Below, piece by piece: positions 1-38,354 of a stretch of DNA of 38,354 nucleotides (the stretch's first letter is position 1; every line of letters begins with the position of its first letter). Origin of the DNA: a virus; IMG/VR virus record IMGVR_UViG_3300037487_000207, positions 1 through 38,354 of that record; one strand, written 5' to 3'. The position numbers were made by a program, and so were the translations under genes. The notes beneath the pieces are model-generated. The model saw nothing but the letters and a program-made list of their open reading frames with translations, did no database searches and was not told the DNA's origin.

Positions 1-126
1 CTTGTTCCCTGAAGCCATCCCCGAAGGTGGGAAAGAGGCTGGGTTTCTCAACAGAGCACCCGGCCTCAAGTTTCTGCAATCGGTAGGTGTTGGCCCCATC
101 CGTGCTCTGTGGTCACACCAGACCAA
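1..126. repeat. Terminal overlap, copy 1 (circular closure)
   Basis: The first 126 bases recur at the other end of the window with a single difference (T at position 10, C at position 38238). The reading frame of the gp10-like gene runs through both copies, and the difference is silent (CCT or CCC, proline). This is what an assembler produces from a circular or circularly permuted genome, which suits a headful-packaging P22-like phage. A true direct terminal repeat is less likely because it falls inside a structural gene. Confidence 0.9.
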
Positions 127-1372
127 CGGCAACGACTTCTATGTGGTGTCGGGTACTGAGGTGTACAAACTCACCAGCTTGACGGGTACACCTGTCAAGA
201 TTGGCAATGTGTCGGGTACTGGCCCCGTGTCGATTGCAGACAATGGCACTCAGTTGTTCTTCGCCTGCAACGGCCCCAGCTACATTTACAACGAAGTCAC
301 CAACGTATTCGCACAGATCACTGACCCTGACTTTCCGGGTGCTGTGACTGTCCAGTACCTTGATGGCTACTTCACATTCAATGAGCCAAACAGTCAGCGT
401 CTATGGGTCACGAGCTTGTTAGATGGCTTGTCTGTTGACCCATTGGACTTTGCCAGTGCAGAGGGTTCACCTGATGGTGTTGTCGCTGTAGCAGTTGACC
501 ATCGGGAACTGTGGGTGTTCGGTACAGACACCATTGAGGTCTGGTATGACGCTGGACTGGCTAGTTTCCCCTTTGCACGCATTCAGGGAGCCTACAACGA
601 GATTGGTTGTGCTGCCCCATACTCGGTAGCCAAACTCGACAATGCCCTGTTCTGGGTAGGTGCCGACCCTCGTGGTTACGGCATCGTGTACAAGAACAAC
701 GGATACACAGGTGTTAGGGTTTCTACCCATGCCATCGAGTACGCGATCCAGCAGTACACCGACATCTCGGATGCCATTGGGTACACCTATCAGCAAGAGG
801 GTCACGCCTTCTATGTGCTGATTTTCCCTAGTGCCAATGCCACATGGGTTTACGATGTGTCCACTCAAGTTTGGCACGAGCGTGCTGGGTTTGAGAATGG
901 TGCGTTCACTCGCCACCGTTCCAACTGCCAGTGCAACTTTGGCTACACGACCATTGTTGGTGACTTTGCCAATGGCAACATCTACTCGTATGACTTGGAT
1001 GTGTACGCCGATAACGGTCAATCGCAGAAGTGGTTGCGGTCATGGCGTGCGCTGCCACCGGGTCAGAACAACCTGAACCGTACTGCCCAGCACAGTCTGC
1101 AACTTGATGCTGAAGCTGGTGTCGGTCTGAATCTGGGTCAGGGTTCTGACCCCGAGGTGATGCTTCGCTGGTCAGACGATGGTGGTCACACTTGGTCTAA
1201 TGAGCACTGGAAGCCAATGGGTAAGATTGGTCAGTATGGCTTTCGTACACTGTGGCGCAGGCTTGGTATGACCATGAAACTGCGTGACCGGGTGTACGAG
1301 GTGTCAGGTACTGATCCTGTCAAGATTGCCCTCATGGGTGCGAATCTTATCGTGAGTCCGACCAAAGCATAA
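2..1372 (+). CDS. P22 gp10-like packaged-DNA stabilisation (tail hub) protein, C-terminal part
   Basis: In P22, gp10 binds below the portal and gp4 rings, closes the DNA channel and anchors needle and tailspikes. The sequence opens with NLFPEAIPEGGKE, followed by APGLK, as in this family, and continues as a beta-rich repeat protein with many Gly, Trp and Tyr residues. The gene is cut by the window edge: position 1 is the third base of an AAC codon, and the missing N-terminus is at 38158-38228. Joined across the closure it gives about 480 residues, close to the 472 of P22 gp10. It follows gp4-like and HAD genes as expected, apart from an HNH insertion. TTG at 2-4 is probably not the real start. 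Its TAA stop overlaps the next ATG (TAATG). Confidence 0.85.
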   Translation: MFPEAIPEGGKEAGFLNRAPGLKFLQSVGVGPIRALWSHQTNGNDFYVVSGTEVYKLTSLTGTPVKIGNVSGTGPVSIADNGTQLFFACNGPSYIYNEVTNVFAQITDPDFPGAVTVQYLDGYFTFNEPNSQRLWVTSLLDGLSVDPLDFASAEGSPDGVVAVAVDHRELWVFGTDTIEVWYDAGLASFPFARIQGAYNEIGCAAPYSVAKLDNALFWVGADPRGYGIVYKNNGYTGVRVSTHAIEYAIQQYTDISDAIGYTYQQEGHAFYVLIFPSANATWVYDVSTQVWHERAGFENGAFTRHRSNCQCNFGYTTIVGDFANGNIYSYDLDVYADNGQSQKWLRSWRALPPGQNNLNRTAQHSLQLDAEAGVGLNLGQGSDPEVMLRWSDDGGHTWSNEHWKPMGKIGQYGFRTLWRRLGMTMKLRDRVYEVSGTDPVKIALMGANLIVSPTKA

Positions 1373-2163: not shown

Positions 2164-2499
2164 ATGACCGTTACCGTTCGCGTTCTTATCCCTGCAAAGA
2201 TTGCAGAGGCAACCCAAGTCACTCAGTACACAGCTACGGGCGTCACTACCATCATTGACAAGTTCACGGCGACAAACTACAGCGCCAGTGCTGCTACGAT
2301 CTCGGTGAACTTGGTGACTGCTGCCGACACTGCTGGCAACCAGAACTTGATTACCAAGACCAAGACACTCCAGCCAGCAGAGGTCTACACGTTCCCTGAA
2401 CTGGTGGGTCAGGTGCTTATGGCGAGTGGGTTTATCAGCACGATTGCTGGTACAGCCACCTCGATTAACATTCGTGCCAGTGGGCGTGAGGTCAGCTAA
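2164..2499 (+). CDS. Small virion-associated protein, unknown
   Basis: A 111-residue protein three bases after the preceding stop. The composition is rich in Thr, Ala, Val and Ser, and alternating polar and hydrophobic residues suggest a small beta-sandwich. No catalytic motif, signal peptide or membrane segment is seen. Its place between the needle candidate and the ejection proteins suggests a minor tail or head component. I do not recognise the family. Confidence 0.6.
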   Translation: MTVTVRVLIPAKIAEATQVTQYTATGVTTIIDKFTATNYSASAATISVNLVTAADTAGNQNLITKTKTLQPAEVYTFPELVGQVLMASGFISTIAGTATSINIRASGREVS

Positions 2500-33875: not shown

Positions 33876-34619
33876 ATGTCAGAAGAAGTATTAGCGGAGT
33901 CACTACCCGTGCCAGCATCGGATGAGACGGCCTCAACTGAAGTTGTAGTTTCAACGCCGGAAACGCCAGAAGTAGCGCCCAAGACATTCTCGCAAGAGGA
34001 ACTTGATGCTGCCATAGGCAAACGCCTTGCCCGAGAGCAACGCAAATGGGAACGAGAACGTCAGGTTGCACCAGCAGCACCCGTTGATATTCCACCTGTC
34101 GATCAGTTTGATTCCGTCGAGGCTTACGCCGAAGCACGGGCTGTCAAGTTAATCGAACAGCGTGAACAGCAACGGCAACAAAGCGACATTCTTGAGAGTT
34201 ATCACGAGCGTGAAGAGGAAGCCCGTGGGAAGTATGATGACTTTGAACAGGTCGCTTATAACCCCAAGCTCACTATTACCAACGTGATGGCTGAGACGAT
34301 TCAGAACTCTGATGTTGGCCCCGATGTAGCTTACTACCTTGGCACTAACCCCAAAGAAGCAGATCGTATTGCCCGTCTGTCACCTTTCTCGCAGGCAAAA
34401 GAGATCGGGAAGATCGAAGCTAAATTAGCTGACAATCCTCCCGTAAAGAAAACGTCCAGTGCTCCAGCGCCTATTGCGCCAGTTACTGCTCGTGGCACTA
34501 GCGGTGCAGCTTTCGATACAACTGATCCTCGTTCAACGAAGACCATGAGTACGTCAGACTGGATTGCTGCTGACCGAGCACGACAGGCCAAGAAGTGGGA
34601 AGCACAACGTAACCGCTAG
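33876..34619 (+). CDS. Scaffolding protein
   Basis: A 247-residue charged protein (rich in Glu, Ala, Gln and Arg) with few aromatic residues. It has a disordered N-terminus (1-45), a coiled-coil-like region (GKRLAREQRKWERER, then REQQRQQSDIL and YHEREEEARGKYDDFEQV), and a basic C-terminus (RARQAKKWEAQRNR), the part that contacts coat in P22. P22's is 303 residues. It directly precedes the coat gene, as expected. It would guide procapsid assembly and leave before packaging. Confidence 0.82.
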   Translation: MSEEVLAESLPVPASDETASTEVVVSTPETPEVAPKTFSQEELDAAIGKRLAREQRKWERERQVAPAAPVDIPPVDQFDSVEAYAEARAVKLIEQREQQRQQSDILESYHEREEEARGKYDDFEQVAYNPKLTITNVMAETIQNSDVGPDVAYYLGTNPKEADRIARLSPFSQAKEIGKIEAKLADNPPVKKTSSAPAPIAPVTARGTSGAAFDTTDPRSTKTMSTSDWIAADRARQAKKWEAQRNR

Positions 34620-34643: not shown

Positions 34644-35855
34644 ATGTCCAATTCGATCCTAACCATTGACATGATTACCCGCAAATCGCTGGAAATCTTG
34701 GAAAACAACCTTGTGCTTACTCGCAACGTGAACCGTCAGTATGATGACAGTTTCGCTGTTGAAGGCGCTAAAATCGGCTCCACTCTGCGTATCCGTTTGC
34801 CTGACCGTGCTCTCGTTACTGATGGCGCTGCTTTGCAAGTGCAAGATGACAACGAACAGTACACCACTCTCTCGGTGTCTAACCAAAAGCACATCGGTGT
34901 CAACTTCAGCTCTGCTGAACTGACCATGCAATTGGATGACTTCGCAGAACGTGTGCTCAAGCCTCGTATCAGCCAGTTGGCTTCCAGCATTGATGCTGAC
35001 GTTGCAAATGCTTACAAGAGCATTTACCAATCTGTCGGTACTCCCGGTACTACACCATCGACCTCTTTGGTTCTGTTGCAAGCGCAACAAAAACTGAACG
35101 AGTCGGCTGCTGGTATGTCCCCACGTTACGCTACCGTCAACCCTGCTGCTAACGCTGGCTTGGTCGAAGGTATGAAGGGTCTGTTCAATCCAACAGACAC
35201 TATCAGCAAGCAGTTCCGTAACGGCATGATGGGTACTGGCGTGTTGGGCTTTGACGAGATCAATATGTCTCAGTCGATCAAACAGCACACCACTGGTTCA
35301 CGCGATGCTTCCGCTGCCACCACTGTGACCGCTACTATCAGCTCACAAGGTTCCGTTACTCTTGGCTTGACTCAAGCCTCTGTGACCACAACCATCAAAG
35401 CTGGTGACGTGTTCACTGTTGCTGATTGCTACGCAGTCAACCCACAGACCCGTGAAACCACTGGTTCTTTGCAACAATTCACCGCTGTGGCTGACGCTAC
35501 TGCTGTGGGCGGTGCTTGGACTGTTACTGTGTCGCCTGCCATGTACACCGCTGCTCACGCACTGGCTACCATCGACAGCTTCCCAGTTGCTGGCAAAACA
35601 GTGACCTTCCTCGGTGCTGCTTCTAGCCAATTCGCACAGAACTTGGTTTACCACAAAGATGCGATCACCTTCGCAACTGCTGACTTGTTGCTGCCTCAAG
35701 GTGTTGACATGGCTTCACGTCAAGTGCATAACGGTATCTCGTTGCGTATCGTGCGTCAGTACGACATCAACAATGACCGTATGCCTTGCCGTATCGACGT
35801 GCTCTATGGCTACAGCGCGATCCGTCCAGCAATGGCTGCTCGTATCTGGGGTTAA
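34644..35855 (+). CDS. Major capsid protein (P22 coat-like, HK97 fold)
   Basis: A 403-residue coat protein (P22 gp5 is 430). The N-terminal segment (ITRKSLEILENNLVLTRNVN) is the P22-type N-arm; GSTLRIRLPDR, FAERVLKPRISQLASSID and the C-terminal ISLRIVRQYDINNDRMPCRIDVLYG are also typical of the family. A strong AAGGAAC site precedes ATG. An insertion domain is probable at about residues 225-325. It ends at a strong terminator-like hairpin. The gene looks more codon-optimised (GCT, GGT, AAC) than its neighbours, as expected for the most abundant protein. Confidence 0.92.
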   Translation: MSNSILTIDMITRKSLEILENNLVLTRNVNRQYDDSFAVEGAKIGSTLRIRLPDRALVTDGAALQVQDDNEQYTTLSVSNQKHIGVNFSSAELTMQLDDFAERVLKPRISQLASSIDADVANAYKSIYQSVGTPGTTPSTSLVLLQAQQKLNESAAGMSPRYATVNPAANAGLVEGMKGLFNPTDTISKQFRNGMMGTGVLGFDEINMSQSIKQHTTGSRDASAATTVTATISSQGSVTLGLTQASVTTTIKAGDVFTVADCYAVNPQTRETTGSLQQFTAVADATAVGGAWTVTVSPAMYTAAHALATIDSFPVAGKTVTFLGAASSQFAQNLVYHKDAITFATADLLLPQGVDMASRQVHNGISLRIVRQYDINNDRMPCRIDVLYGYSAIRPAMAARIWG

Positions 35856-36533: not shown

Positions 36534-37247
36534 ATGGCAAGCACAGCGGGCGACCAGATCAACGGCGCTTTACGCCTCATCGGTATGCTGGCTGAGGGAG
36601 AAGTCCCATCTGCCGAAACTTCACAAGACGCACTGACAGCCATGAATCAGATGATTGATTCGTGGAATACTGAGCGTCTTTCCGTCTTCGCAACCCAAGA
36701 CCAAACTTACATCTGGCCTGCTGGTGTTCTGACCCAGACTATCGGCCCAACAGGTACGTTCCCCGGCAATCGTCCAGTCCTGTTTGACGATTCAACGTAC
36801 TACCGTGACCCAAGCACCAACGTGTCGTTTGGCATAAAGTTCATCAACCAGCAGCAGTACAACGGCATTGCAGTAAAAACTGTAACGTCCACCTACCCTC
36901 AAGTCTGCTGGGTGAACATGGAGTACCCGAACGCCACAATGACCGTCTATCCCAAGCCCACTCGGGAACTGGAATGGCACATTGTCTCGGTCACTGAACT
37001 CACTCAACCCGCTACGCTGGCAACTCAGTTGTCCTTCCCACCGGGTTATCTGCGTGCGTTTAAGTACAATCTGGCCTGTGAAATCGCTGCTGAGTTTGGT
37101 GTAGAACCCAGTCGGCAAGTGTCTCGGATTGCCATGAGCAGCAAGCGCAATCTGAAGCGCATCAACAATCCAGACGATGTGATGTCGATACCCTACGCAC
37201 TGGTTGCTACTCGTCAACGGTTCAATGTTTACGCTGGTAATTATTGA
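36534..37247 (+). CDS. P22 gp4-like head-tail (tail accessory) protein
   Basis: A 237-residue protein. The N-terminus (AGDQINGALRLIGMLAEGE), LTAMNQMIDSWNTERL, and the C-terminal helical part (GYLRAFKYNLACEIAAEFG, then IAMSSKRNLKRINN) fit the P22 gp4 family, the first ring added to the portal after packaging. P22 gp4 is shorter (166), and extra residues lie in the middle. A GGAG site precedes ATG. It overlaps the HAD gene by one base (TGATG). Confidence 0.85.
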   Translation: MASTAGDQINGALRLIGMLAEGEVPSAETSQDALTAMNQMIDSWNTERLSVFATQDQTYIWPAGVLTQTIGPTGTFPGNRPVLFDDSTYYRDPSTNVSFGIKFINQQQYNGIAVKTVTSTYPQVCWVNMEYPNATMTVYPKPTRELEWHIVSVTELTQPATLATQLSFPPGYLRAFKYNLACEIAAEFGVEPSRQVSRIAMSSKRNLKRINNPDDVMSIPYALVATRQRFNVYAGNY

Positions 37248-37492
37248 TGCTAGTCGCTCTTGATTACGACAAAACATACACCGCTGACCCTGTGTTGTGG
37301 GATGAGTTTATTCAATCCGCGCATACTCGTGGTCATGTTGTAAAAATTGTCACAATGCGTAGACCTGACGAGGTGATTGAAAATGTTCCCGTTGAGGTCG
37401 TGTACACCAGTAGAAAAGCAAAGTCTGCGATGGTGCAAGCTGACATCTGGATTGACGATAGTCCACATTGGGTATATCAGGATTCTCTATGA
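37247..37492 (+). CDS. Small HAD-like phosphatase domain
   Basis: An 81-residue mini-HAD protein: D6-Y-D8 (ALDYDKTYT), Thr36 in IVTMRR, and Asp70-Asp71 in IWIDDSPHW, the spacing of HAD motifs I, II and IV. The cap domain is missing. It may be a nucleotidase or polynucleotide 3'-phosphatase-like enzyme. In many phages a small HAD gene lies between gp4- and gp10-type genes. The stop overlaps ATG 37489, the likely original start of the gp10 gene. Confidence 0.65.
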   Translation: MLVALDYDKTYTADPVLWDEFIQSAHTRGHVVKIVTMRRPDEVIENVPVEVVYTSRKAKSAMVQADIWIDDSPHWVYQDSL

Positions 37493-37494
37493 TT

Positions 37495-38121
37495 TCATCT
37501 TGCGTGCCACCACGACTTCCCCATCCAGATGGCTGTAACCATGTGAATGGATACACCGTGTTTCACAGCTATCTCTTTGCGTCTTTCACCTGTTTGTTTA
37601 GCATACCAAATATCCCTAGCTTGTTCGAAAGTCAACTTTTTAGATTTCCCAAGCTCGTACAGGGCGTGTTGCATATTTCCCCTTTGACTAATGTATTCAA
37701 GATTTTTGGCAACATTGTTTTGCTTATTCCCGTCTATGTGGTTTACGTAACGACCGATTGGTCTATTTCCGATGAAACTAGCCGCGACCATAGAATGAAT
37801 AGTTTTATGAGAATTTTCAGCATTTTTCACAAGCGTGACAAACAAATATCCATCCCGTCGAAGTGCTGGAGTAAGTATATGAGTTGCATCGTTGTAAGCA
37901 GCACCTCTCAAAATTTTACTTATAATGGTCTGGGAAATATGAAACAACGGGGCTATTTTTCTAGCACTAATGCCTGTTTTGCTAAGTTGATGAATTTCAA
38001 GAATCTGGTCTGGACTCAATGTTCGTTGAAACTCACCCAATGGTCTAATGCTTTTAACATTACCCAAATTACTGATGTGATACAGCGGTTCAAAATTTAC
38101 CACAGGTTGCCAAAGTTCCAT
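37495..38121 (-). CDS. HNH homing endonuclease with NUMOD4 and HTH domains
   Basis: A 208-residue DNA endonuclease from ATG 38121, with AAGGA six bases upstream. Residues 1-30 are NUMOD4-like (MELWQPVVNFEPLYHISNLG), 36-75 a helix-turn-helix, 88-155 the HNH domain with His109 (IHSMVAASF), His128 and Asn132/136/140 (NHIDGNKQNN, NLEY), and 163-200 a second HTH or NUMOD-type region. Family members cut phage DNA at sites they invade. It is antisense to the surrounding operon and its ends match the gap between HAD and gp10, so it is an insertion. An in-frame extension to 38307 would read antisense through gp10 and is not expected. Confidence 0.85.
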   Translation of the reverse strand: MELWQPVVNFEPLYHISNLGNVKSIRPLGEFQRTLSPDQILEIHQLSKTGISARKIAPLFHISQTIISKILRGAAYNDATHILTPALRRDGYLFVTLVKNAENSHKTIHSMVAASFIGNRPIGRYVNHIDGNKQNNVAKNLEYISQRGNMQHALYELGKSKKLTFEQARDIWYAKQTGERRKEIAVKHGVSIHMVTAIWMGKSWWHAR

Positions 38122-38142
38122 TTGAGTATCCTTAACAGTTGA

Positions 38143-38354
38143 AAACTGGAGTATATCATCAAGACACCCTTCCTTGGCGCATCTTATGTAGCCCGTAGCA
38201 TCAACGCTGCTGACAATCGCTGTGTCAACTTGTTCCCCGAAGCCATCCCCGAAGGTGGGAAAGAGGCTGGGTTTCTCAACAGAGCACCCGGCCTCAAGTT
38301 TCTGCAATCGGTAGGTGTTGGCCCCATCCGTGCTCTGTGGTCACACCAGACCAA
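38143..38354 (+). CDS. gp10-like protein, 5' part (start codon lacking)
   Basis: This open frame joins with 2-1372 through the terminal repeat. The conserved N-terminal part (IIKTPFLGASYVARSINAAD, then NRCVNLFPE) is encoded from 38155, but the frame has no ATG or GTG between the TGA at 38140 and the repeat; only CTG (38146) and TTG (38230) occur. GGAG at 38148-38151 would be a plausible ribosome binding site for a codon at 38155 or 38158 (both ATC). The missing start probably lies at 37489, separated by the HNH insertion. How, or whether, the protein is still made is unclear. Confidence 0.7.
38229..38354. repeat. Terminal overlap, copy 2 (circular closure)
   Basis: The match to bases 1-126, with C at 38238 in place of T. 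It is at the end of the linearised sequence. Confidence 0.9.

Follow-up and report, generated by a model that had tools for sequence, protein, structure and literature searches.

A backward HNH gene at the gp10 start of a podovirus-like genome keeps its opposite strand open, probably as a ribosome bridge

A free-standing HNH gene inserted backwards at the start of the phage gene gp10 leaves the strand opposite to it free of stop codons in the HNH codon register, and comparison among relatives shows that this openness, rather than any particular peptide, is what selection maintains. The case described here comes from a circular podovirus-like genome, referred to below as the window, meaning the whole 38,354-nt stretch of viral DNA analysed. 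Antisense insertions in operons are usually regarded as disruptive, and antisense open reading frames as noise. The open plus-strand frame under the HNH gene, hereafter the through-ORF, was absent from the initial annotation of this DNA and is our main finding; we consider that it probably serves as a ribosome bridge keeping translational coupling across the backward mobile gene.

The window ends in a terminal overlap, positions 38229-38354 repeating 1-126 with one mismatch, and the contig is therefore circular and gp10 complete at 480 codons. The single mismatch (10 T versus 38238 C) is synonymous and reflects either strain variation or assembly. The G+C content is roughly 49%. The late operon, whose genes are linked via overlapping stop and start codons, ends in the order gp4, a small HAD-like gene, the antisense HNH gene and gp10 (Table 1). 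The gp4 TGA overlaps the HAD start (TGATG), and the HAD ORF ends in CT ATGA, where the TGA stop at 37490-37492 overlaps an ATG at 37489. The HAD label is based on a DYDKT motif; the best Pfam match of this ORF is PKC_C2 (E 4e-6), a model that looks misnamed or mixed. Dozens of relatives carry a HAD cassette in the gp4-gp10 interval, and some of them (L123-L126) start gp10 with TTG.

Table 1. Features at the gp4-gp10 junction of the window
Feature	Position	Strand	Remarks
gp4-like tail accessory factor	36534..37247	+	ORF; weak Pfam P22_Tail-4 match; directly upstream of gp10 in HNH-free relatives
Small HAD-like gene	37247..37492	+	Between gp4 and gp10 in many relatives too
ATG over the HAD stop	37489..37491	+	Former gp10 start, now the through-ORF start; HAD-bearing HNH-free relatives place the gp10 ATG exactly here
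Through-ORF	37489..38142	+	217 codons, then TGA; opposite strand of the HNH gene, in its codon register; proposed ribosome bridge
HNH homing-endonuclease-like gene (NUMOD4 + HNH_3)	37495..38121	-	208 aa; antisense to the late operon; without TTA, CTA or TCA codons
Possible ribosome-binding site of the HNH gene	38129..38133	-	AAGGA on the minus strand; predicted from sequence
TGA closing the through-ORF	38140..38142	+	In frame with gp10, whose proposed start lies 15 bases downstream
GGAG Shine-Dalgarno of gp10	38148..38151	+	6 bases before AUC 38158, a spacing common to every A-type insert
Possible extended -10 promoter of the HNH gene	38150..38158	-	TGATATACT on the minus strand; overlaps gp10 Shine-Dalgarno and start; predicted
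AUC replacing the ancestral gp10 AUG	38158..38160	+	Proposed start codon; alternative, AUC at 38155
gp10 5' part (packaged-DNA stabilisation / head closure)	38158..38228	+	Crosses the circle junction into 1-1372
gp10 remainder	1..1372	+	Pfam Phage_stabilise, E 2e-7

The insert has the domains and the distribution of an HNH homing endonuclease. The window protein matches NUMOD4 (E 5e-9) and HNH_3 (E 6e-8), scoring 32.7 bits against PF13392 (cut-off 24.8) and 36.8 bits against PF07463 (cut-off 23.4), and the insert occurs sporadically at one site, with many relatives carrying it and many lacking it. Comparison with the insert-free close relative L001, which has ~94-95% DNA identity to the window and 100% in the compared gp10 protein and lacks both HAD and HNH, demonstrates the insertion, as its alignment with the window is interrupted precisely at 37240 and 38158. 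Beyond the HNH ORF the insert has only ~40 bases. Its putative extended -10 element was not flagged by a consensus promoter scan. The set assembled for the gp4/gp10 site comprises 77 distinct antisense HNH inserts, in which types A and B form an HNH/NUMOD4 group and type C an HNH/AP2 group; ends of the TGNTATACT type recur in A and most B inserts. At fourteen loci (L143-L156), an antisense HNH gene 52-64% identical to that of the window occupies the same place.

A plus-strand stop in this register arises wherever the antisense HNH gene has a TTA, CTA or TCA codon, and these codons are almost absent. Across the inserts, the HNH genes contain TTG 482 times, TTA 3, CTA 0 and TCA 3 times, while the same genes prefer A-ending codons about 3:1 elsewhere (AAA:AAG 940:333, GAA:GAG 515:178, CAA:CAG 363:112). 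The in-register plus frame is stop-free in 72 of the 77 inserts, whereas the other two plus frames never are (mean stops 7.4 and 11.2); the five exceptions have one or two internal stops, and in four of them an ATG or GTG lies no more than ~10 bases from a stop. After clustering at 80% protein identity, the 28 clusters hold 6 antisense-stop codons versus 188 expected, the expectation being computed from each gene's own A-ending codon use; since the inserts are related by descent, summed log-probabilities serve for description only. For the window HNH gene alone, the probability of having none is ~9e-8 given its own A-ending codon use and 0.0016 given window codon use. HNH homologues outside the phage group mostly contain 2-19 TTA, CTA or TCA codons, but many of them are more A+T-rich, and the internal codon control therefore matters. 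The rule is common to the HNH/NUMOD4 (A, B) and HNH/AP2 (C) inserts.

Both ends of the open frame are also placed non-randomly. In each of the relatives compared first, the frame ran unbroken from an ATG at or close to the preceding stop up to a stop at the start of gp10. The first in-register ATG lies less than 60 bases from the gp4 end in 75 of 76 inserts, compared with 19/76 and 12/76 for the other frames. As comparison across the set likewise establishes, the terminal stop sits at gp10: it overlaps the gp10 start codon in 67 of the 77, in the +1 arrangement (ATGA/ATAA) in 56 and in the -2 arrangement (TAATG type) in 11. This is the stop/start overlap of translationally coupled genes, for which the window, with stop and start 15 bases apart, is a borderline case. 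Overlaps in the ATGA, ATAA and TAATG style are common coupling arrangements (PMC10666635, PMC12548453).

Taking these observations together, we propose that the HNH gene landed backwards at the gp10 start codon and would have been tolerated since its complementary strand is an open reading frame. Ribosomes finishing gp4 (HAD in the window) would restart at the old gp10 ATG, cross the insert by translating a meaningless antisense frame, terminate at or near its far edge, and then reinitiate at gp10, aided by the GGAG that the insert provides, the restart codon being AUA or AUC throughout type A and mostly AUG elsewhere. Translation across the insert may additionally guard the message against Rho-dependent termination. 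The crossing and the feeding of gp10 by termination-reinitiation are what we infer from this arrangement, together with AUC 38158 (or 38155) as the window start.

HNH-free relatives, with HAD or without, begin gp10 with ATG AAG/AAA/CAG/CAC ACN CCN, a few using TTG or GTG, and this ATG overlaps or adjoins the stop of gp4 or HAD; those bearing HAD read GATTCTCT followed directly by ATGAAGACC, and the window reads GATTCTCTATGATTT. Window gp10 resumes as ATC ATC AAG ACA CCC, preceded in frame by TGA (38140) AAA CTG GAG TAT ATC ATC, with no ATG, GTG or TTG in the gp10 frame between that TGA and AAG ACA CCC. The initial annotation had noted the HAD stop overlapping ATG 37489, the reversed HNH gene next to it and a gp10 resuming without a usual start, and these coordinates hold in the sequence, as does its arithmetic that a 663-base insert would part gp10 from ATG 37489 in frame. 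That ATG is indeed positionally the old gp10 start, but the MIIKTP junction predicted on its removal is not the family's N-terminus: relatives start MKTP, and no homologue has the predicted MII. The comparison of homologues it called for places the ancestral start at ATC 38158, which exactly replaces the ATG of HNH-free relatives, and lends support to its suggestion of a non-AUG start, an AUC after GGAG.

Comparison among relatives indeed establishes AUG loss throughout type A. At all 14 loci of L143-L156, ATA or ATC stands where gp10 had its ATG, in the context GGAG(T/A)ATATC-AT(A/C), and the distinct A-type inserts besides the window comprise 8 with ATA and 2 with ATC (10/10 non-AUG). A pattern scan that left the third codon position free found an additional ATC case (L327) and ATG in the A-type context once only, in a B-type insert (L314). 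Most B and C inserts start gp10 with AUG; A-type inserts never do. An in-frame TAG at -12 in most ATA cases leaves only GAG TAT ATC ATA as candidates to start. AUC and AUA are poor start codons. In the simplest reading of these alignments, gp10 would initiate at AUC or AUA 6 bases after GGAG, with the AUC 3 bases upstream as the alternative; AUU, AUC and AUA are rare bacterial start codons (PMC6397469). A scan of the window found no tRNA genes at all, and thus no phage-borne tRNA that could read AUC as a start, and the RNA around the window gp10 start folds no better than shuffles (z -0.3), giving no sign of a sequestering hairpin.

As to why type A lost its AUG, one idea is that the endonuclease cut site includes the gp10 ATG, so that the change would confer self-protection. 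A demand of the HNH promoter was considered and rejected, as ATA makes TATGAT on the minus strand and ATC does not, and the explanation fails for the window. Placed on the HNH tree, the start-codon state requires ~5 changes, a number that does not establish independent origins of AUA/AUC, since the flanks of L249 have apparently recombined. The L249 HNH is 96% identical to that of the AUG-start relative L336, and its gp10 N-terminus and ATA start match the A-type L144; the start allele thus seems to move by flank recombination.

The strongest rival, which we hold possible but clearly less probable than the ribosome bridge, is that the open frame only prevents polarity, in which Rho loads onto late mRNA left untranslated, or shields the late message in the region where it can pair with HNH transcripts, and that gp10 starts independently at GGAG plus AUA, AUC or AUG with no reinitiation. 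Selection for openness but not for a peptide suits this explanation, as do the 6-base spacing between GGAG and start codon, seen in A-type inserts and many of type B, and the window stop 15 bases upstream of its gp10 start. Coupling drops sharply with distance, and a gap of ~20 bases left almost none of it in reporter tests in E. coli and Haloferax (PMC10666635); in the window it could thus be weak and GGAG may act alone. Against it, the 67/77 terminal stops overlapping the gp10 start at +1 or -2 are placed more tightly than polarity alone needs, although part of this precision is automatic, since in the +1 frame any codon 2 with an initial A yields ATGA; moreover, an independent gp10 start would lead one to expect a strong AUG. 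Coupling and Rho protection, as benefits, are fitted alike by the sequence data.

A true antisense overlapping gene encoding a functional protein would also explain why a long open frame is conserved and has an ATG and a terminal stop of its own, but we judge it very unlikely. Third positions of the HNH genes are the most variable, which marks HNH as the protein-coding frame. Fourfold-site identity in HNH, scored without the Leu and Ser boxes, is 0.32-0.40 versus 0.29-0.42 in gp4/gp10 for the same pairs at moderate divergence, a level of saturation about equal in the two sets. Each such HNH site is also position 1 of a through-ORF codon, so that the antisense peptide is not conserved, only its openness, and the protein-level constraint on both frames that an overlapping gene predicts is not seen. 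In addition, the products beneath unrelated HNH families are unrelated, and the window product has no Pfam match.

It is equally improbable that gp10 starts downstream in an N-terminally shortened form, at TTG 38230 or at an internal ATG such as that near codon 22 in several relatives. Among the non-AUG alleles, divergence over gp10 codons 2-22 is 0.50 at third positions against 0.20 at the first two, so that comparison reveals protein-level constraint upstream of such starts; the N-terminal part is therefore translated.

Still less probable is removal of the insert as RNA (an intron) or ribosomal bypassing that joins ATG 37489 to AAG 38161, as the initial annotation had entertained. The left ATG and gp10 do share a frame in the window, but relatives show all three phase relations between the through frame and gp10, the insert has only its ~40 bases besides the HNH ORF, no Rfam ribozyme or intron family scores above cut-off, and the right edge supplies the GGAG; with the endonuclease antisense to gp10, the insert falls outside the self-splicing intron and intein classes. 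Neither splicing nor one fixed recoding event is needed. Its further suggestion, a population variant, is right in that L001 lacks the gene, but many lineages carry the insert stably and in compensated form. That the stop-free frame arose simply from codon bias or base composition is scarcely credible: other long antisense ORFs do occur in the window, and L177-L179, outside the phage group, have none of the three codons, but window genes use them normally (TTA 86, CTA 54 and TCA 142 times), the HNH genes themselves favour A-ending codons unless an antisense stop would arise, and the positions of the first in-register ATG and terminal stop are non-random as well.

The rule largely recurs at a second hotspot, where a further HNH type lies antisense between scaffold-like and P22-coat-like genes in ~33 relatives (e.g. 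L143, L458-L500); the flanks are homologues of window 33876-34619 and 34644-35855, between which the window has no such insert. Here, 17 of 33 inserts have no internal stop in the opposite-strand frame, and most of the remainder have one, at codon 2 or 3 from the left edge or directly before an ATG. The terminal stop often lies 4-49 bases upstream of coat, placed less tightly than at gp10, and coat has its own Shine-Dalgarno, both of which favour the polarity or shielding explanation. At a third antisense HNH site, beside a homologue of window 2164-2499, L434 has 1 and L439 0 antisense-stop codons. The annotated environmental podovirus MW202483 (L537) carries at 1903-2391 an antisense endonuclease with 0 antisense-stop codons; its through frame terminates well upstream of gp10, which apparently starts at TTG after GGAG. 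Antisense HNH candidates outside the phage group (L157, L170, L209), their orientation roughly called, contain stops, and we apply the stop-free rule to this phage group without extending it to antisense HNH genes generally.

These comparisons describe a selfish gene whose opposite strand is under strong, measurable selection merely for translatability, and offer a natural test case of termination-reinitiation versus polarity and a route for homing genes into essential operons without splicing. They also point to a virion gene apparently started on AUA or AUC, a kind of gene that gene finders miss or truncate. We give about even odds to the broader view that, beside splicing and sense-strand intergenic lodging, this would be a third way into an essential operon: a backward insert that acts as a content-free, translatable bridge relaying ribosomes, found with two HNH architectures here and with a third elsewhere in the operon, the essential gene of one lineage being obligately AUA/AUC-started. 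In the open-access literature searched, we found no description of an antisense HNH gene with an open opposite strand.

The closest known systems are mobE of Aeromonas phage Aeh1, inserted in nrdA, and T4 mobA/gene 60, in which a free-standing HNH gene likewise interrupts an essential phage gene that is kept functional by adapted translation signals (PMC2988022). However, those nucleases split the host gene into separate coding regions, whereas here the HNH gene is antisense, the host protein whole and the opposite strand kept open. Sense-oriented seg/mob endonucleases of T4 are linked to their neighbours by overlapping stop and start codons too (UAAUGA for mobE, PMC2988022), but there the coupled ORF is the nuclease, and here it is a meaningless antisense frame. 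The through-ORF ends share the ATGA, ATAA and TAATG overlaps of termination-reinitiation coupling (PMC6728339, PMC10666635, PMC12548453), but what lies upstream here is no selected protein, and type A has AUA or AUC as its downstream start. Inteins and group I introns with homing endonucleases also house a nuclease gene in an essential gene; they are spliced out, while here nothing appears to be removed.
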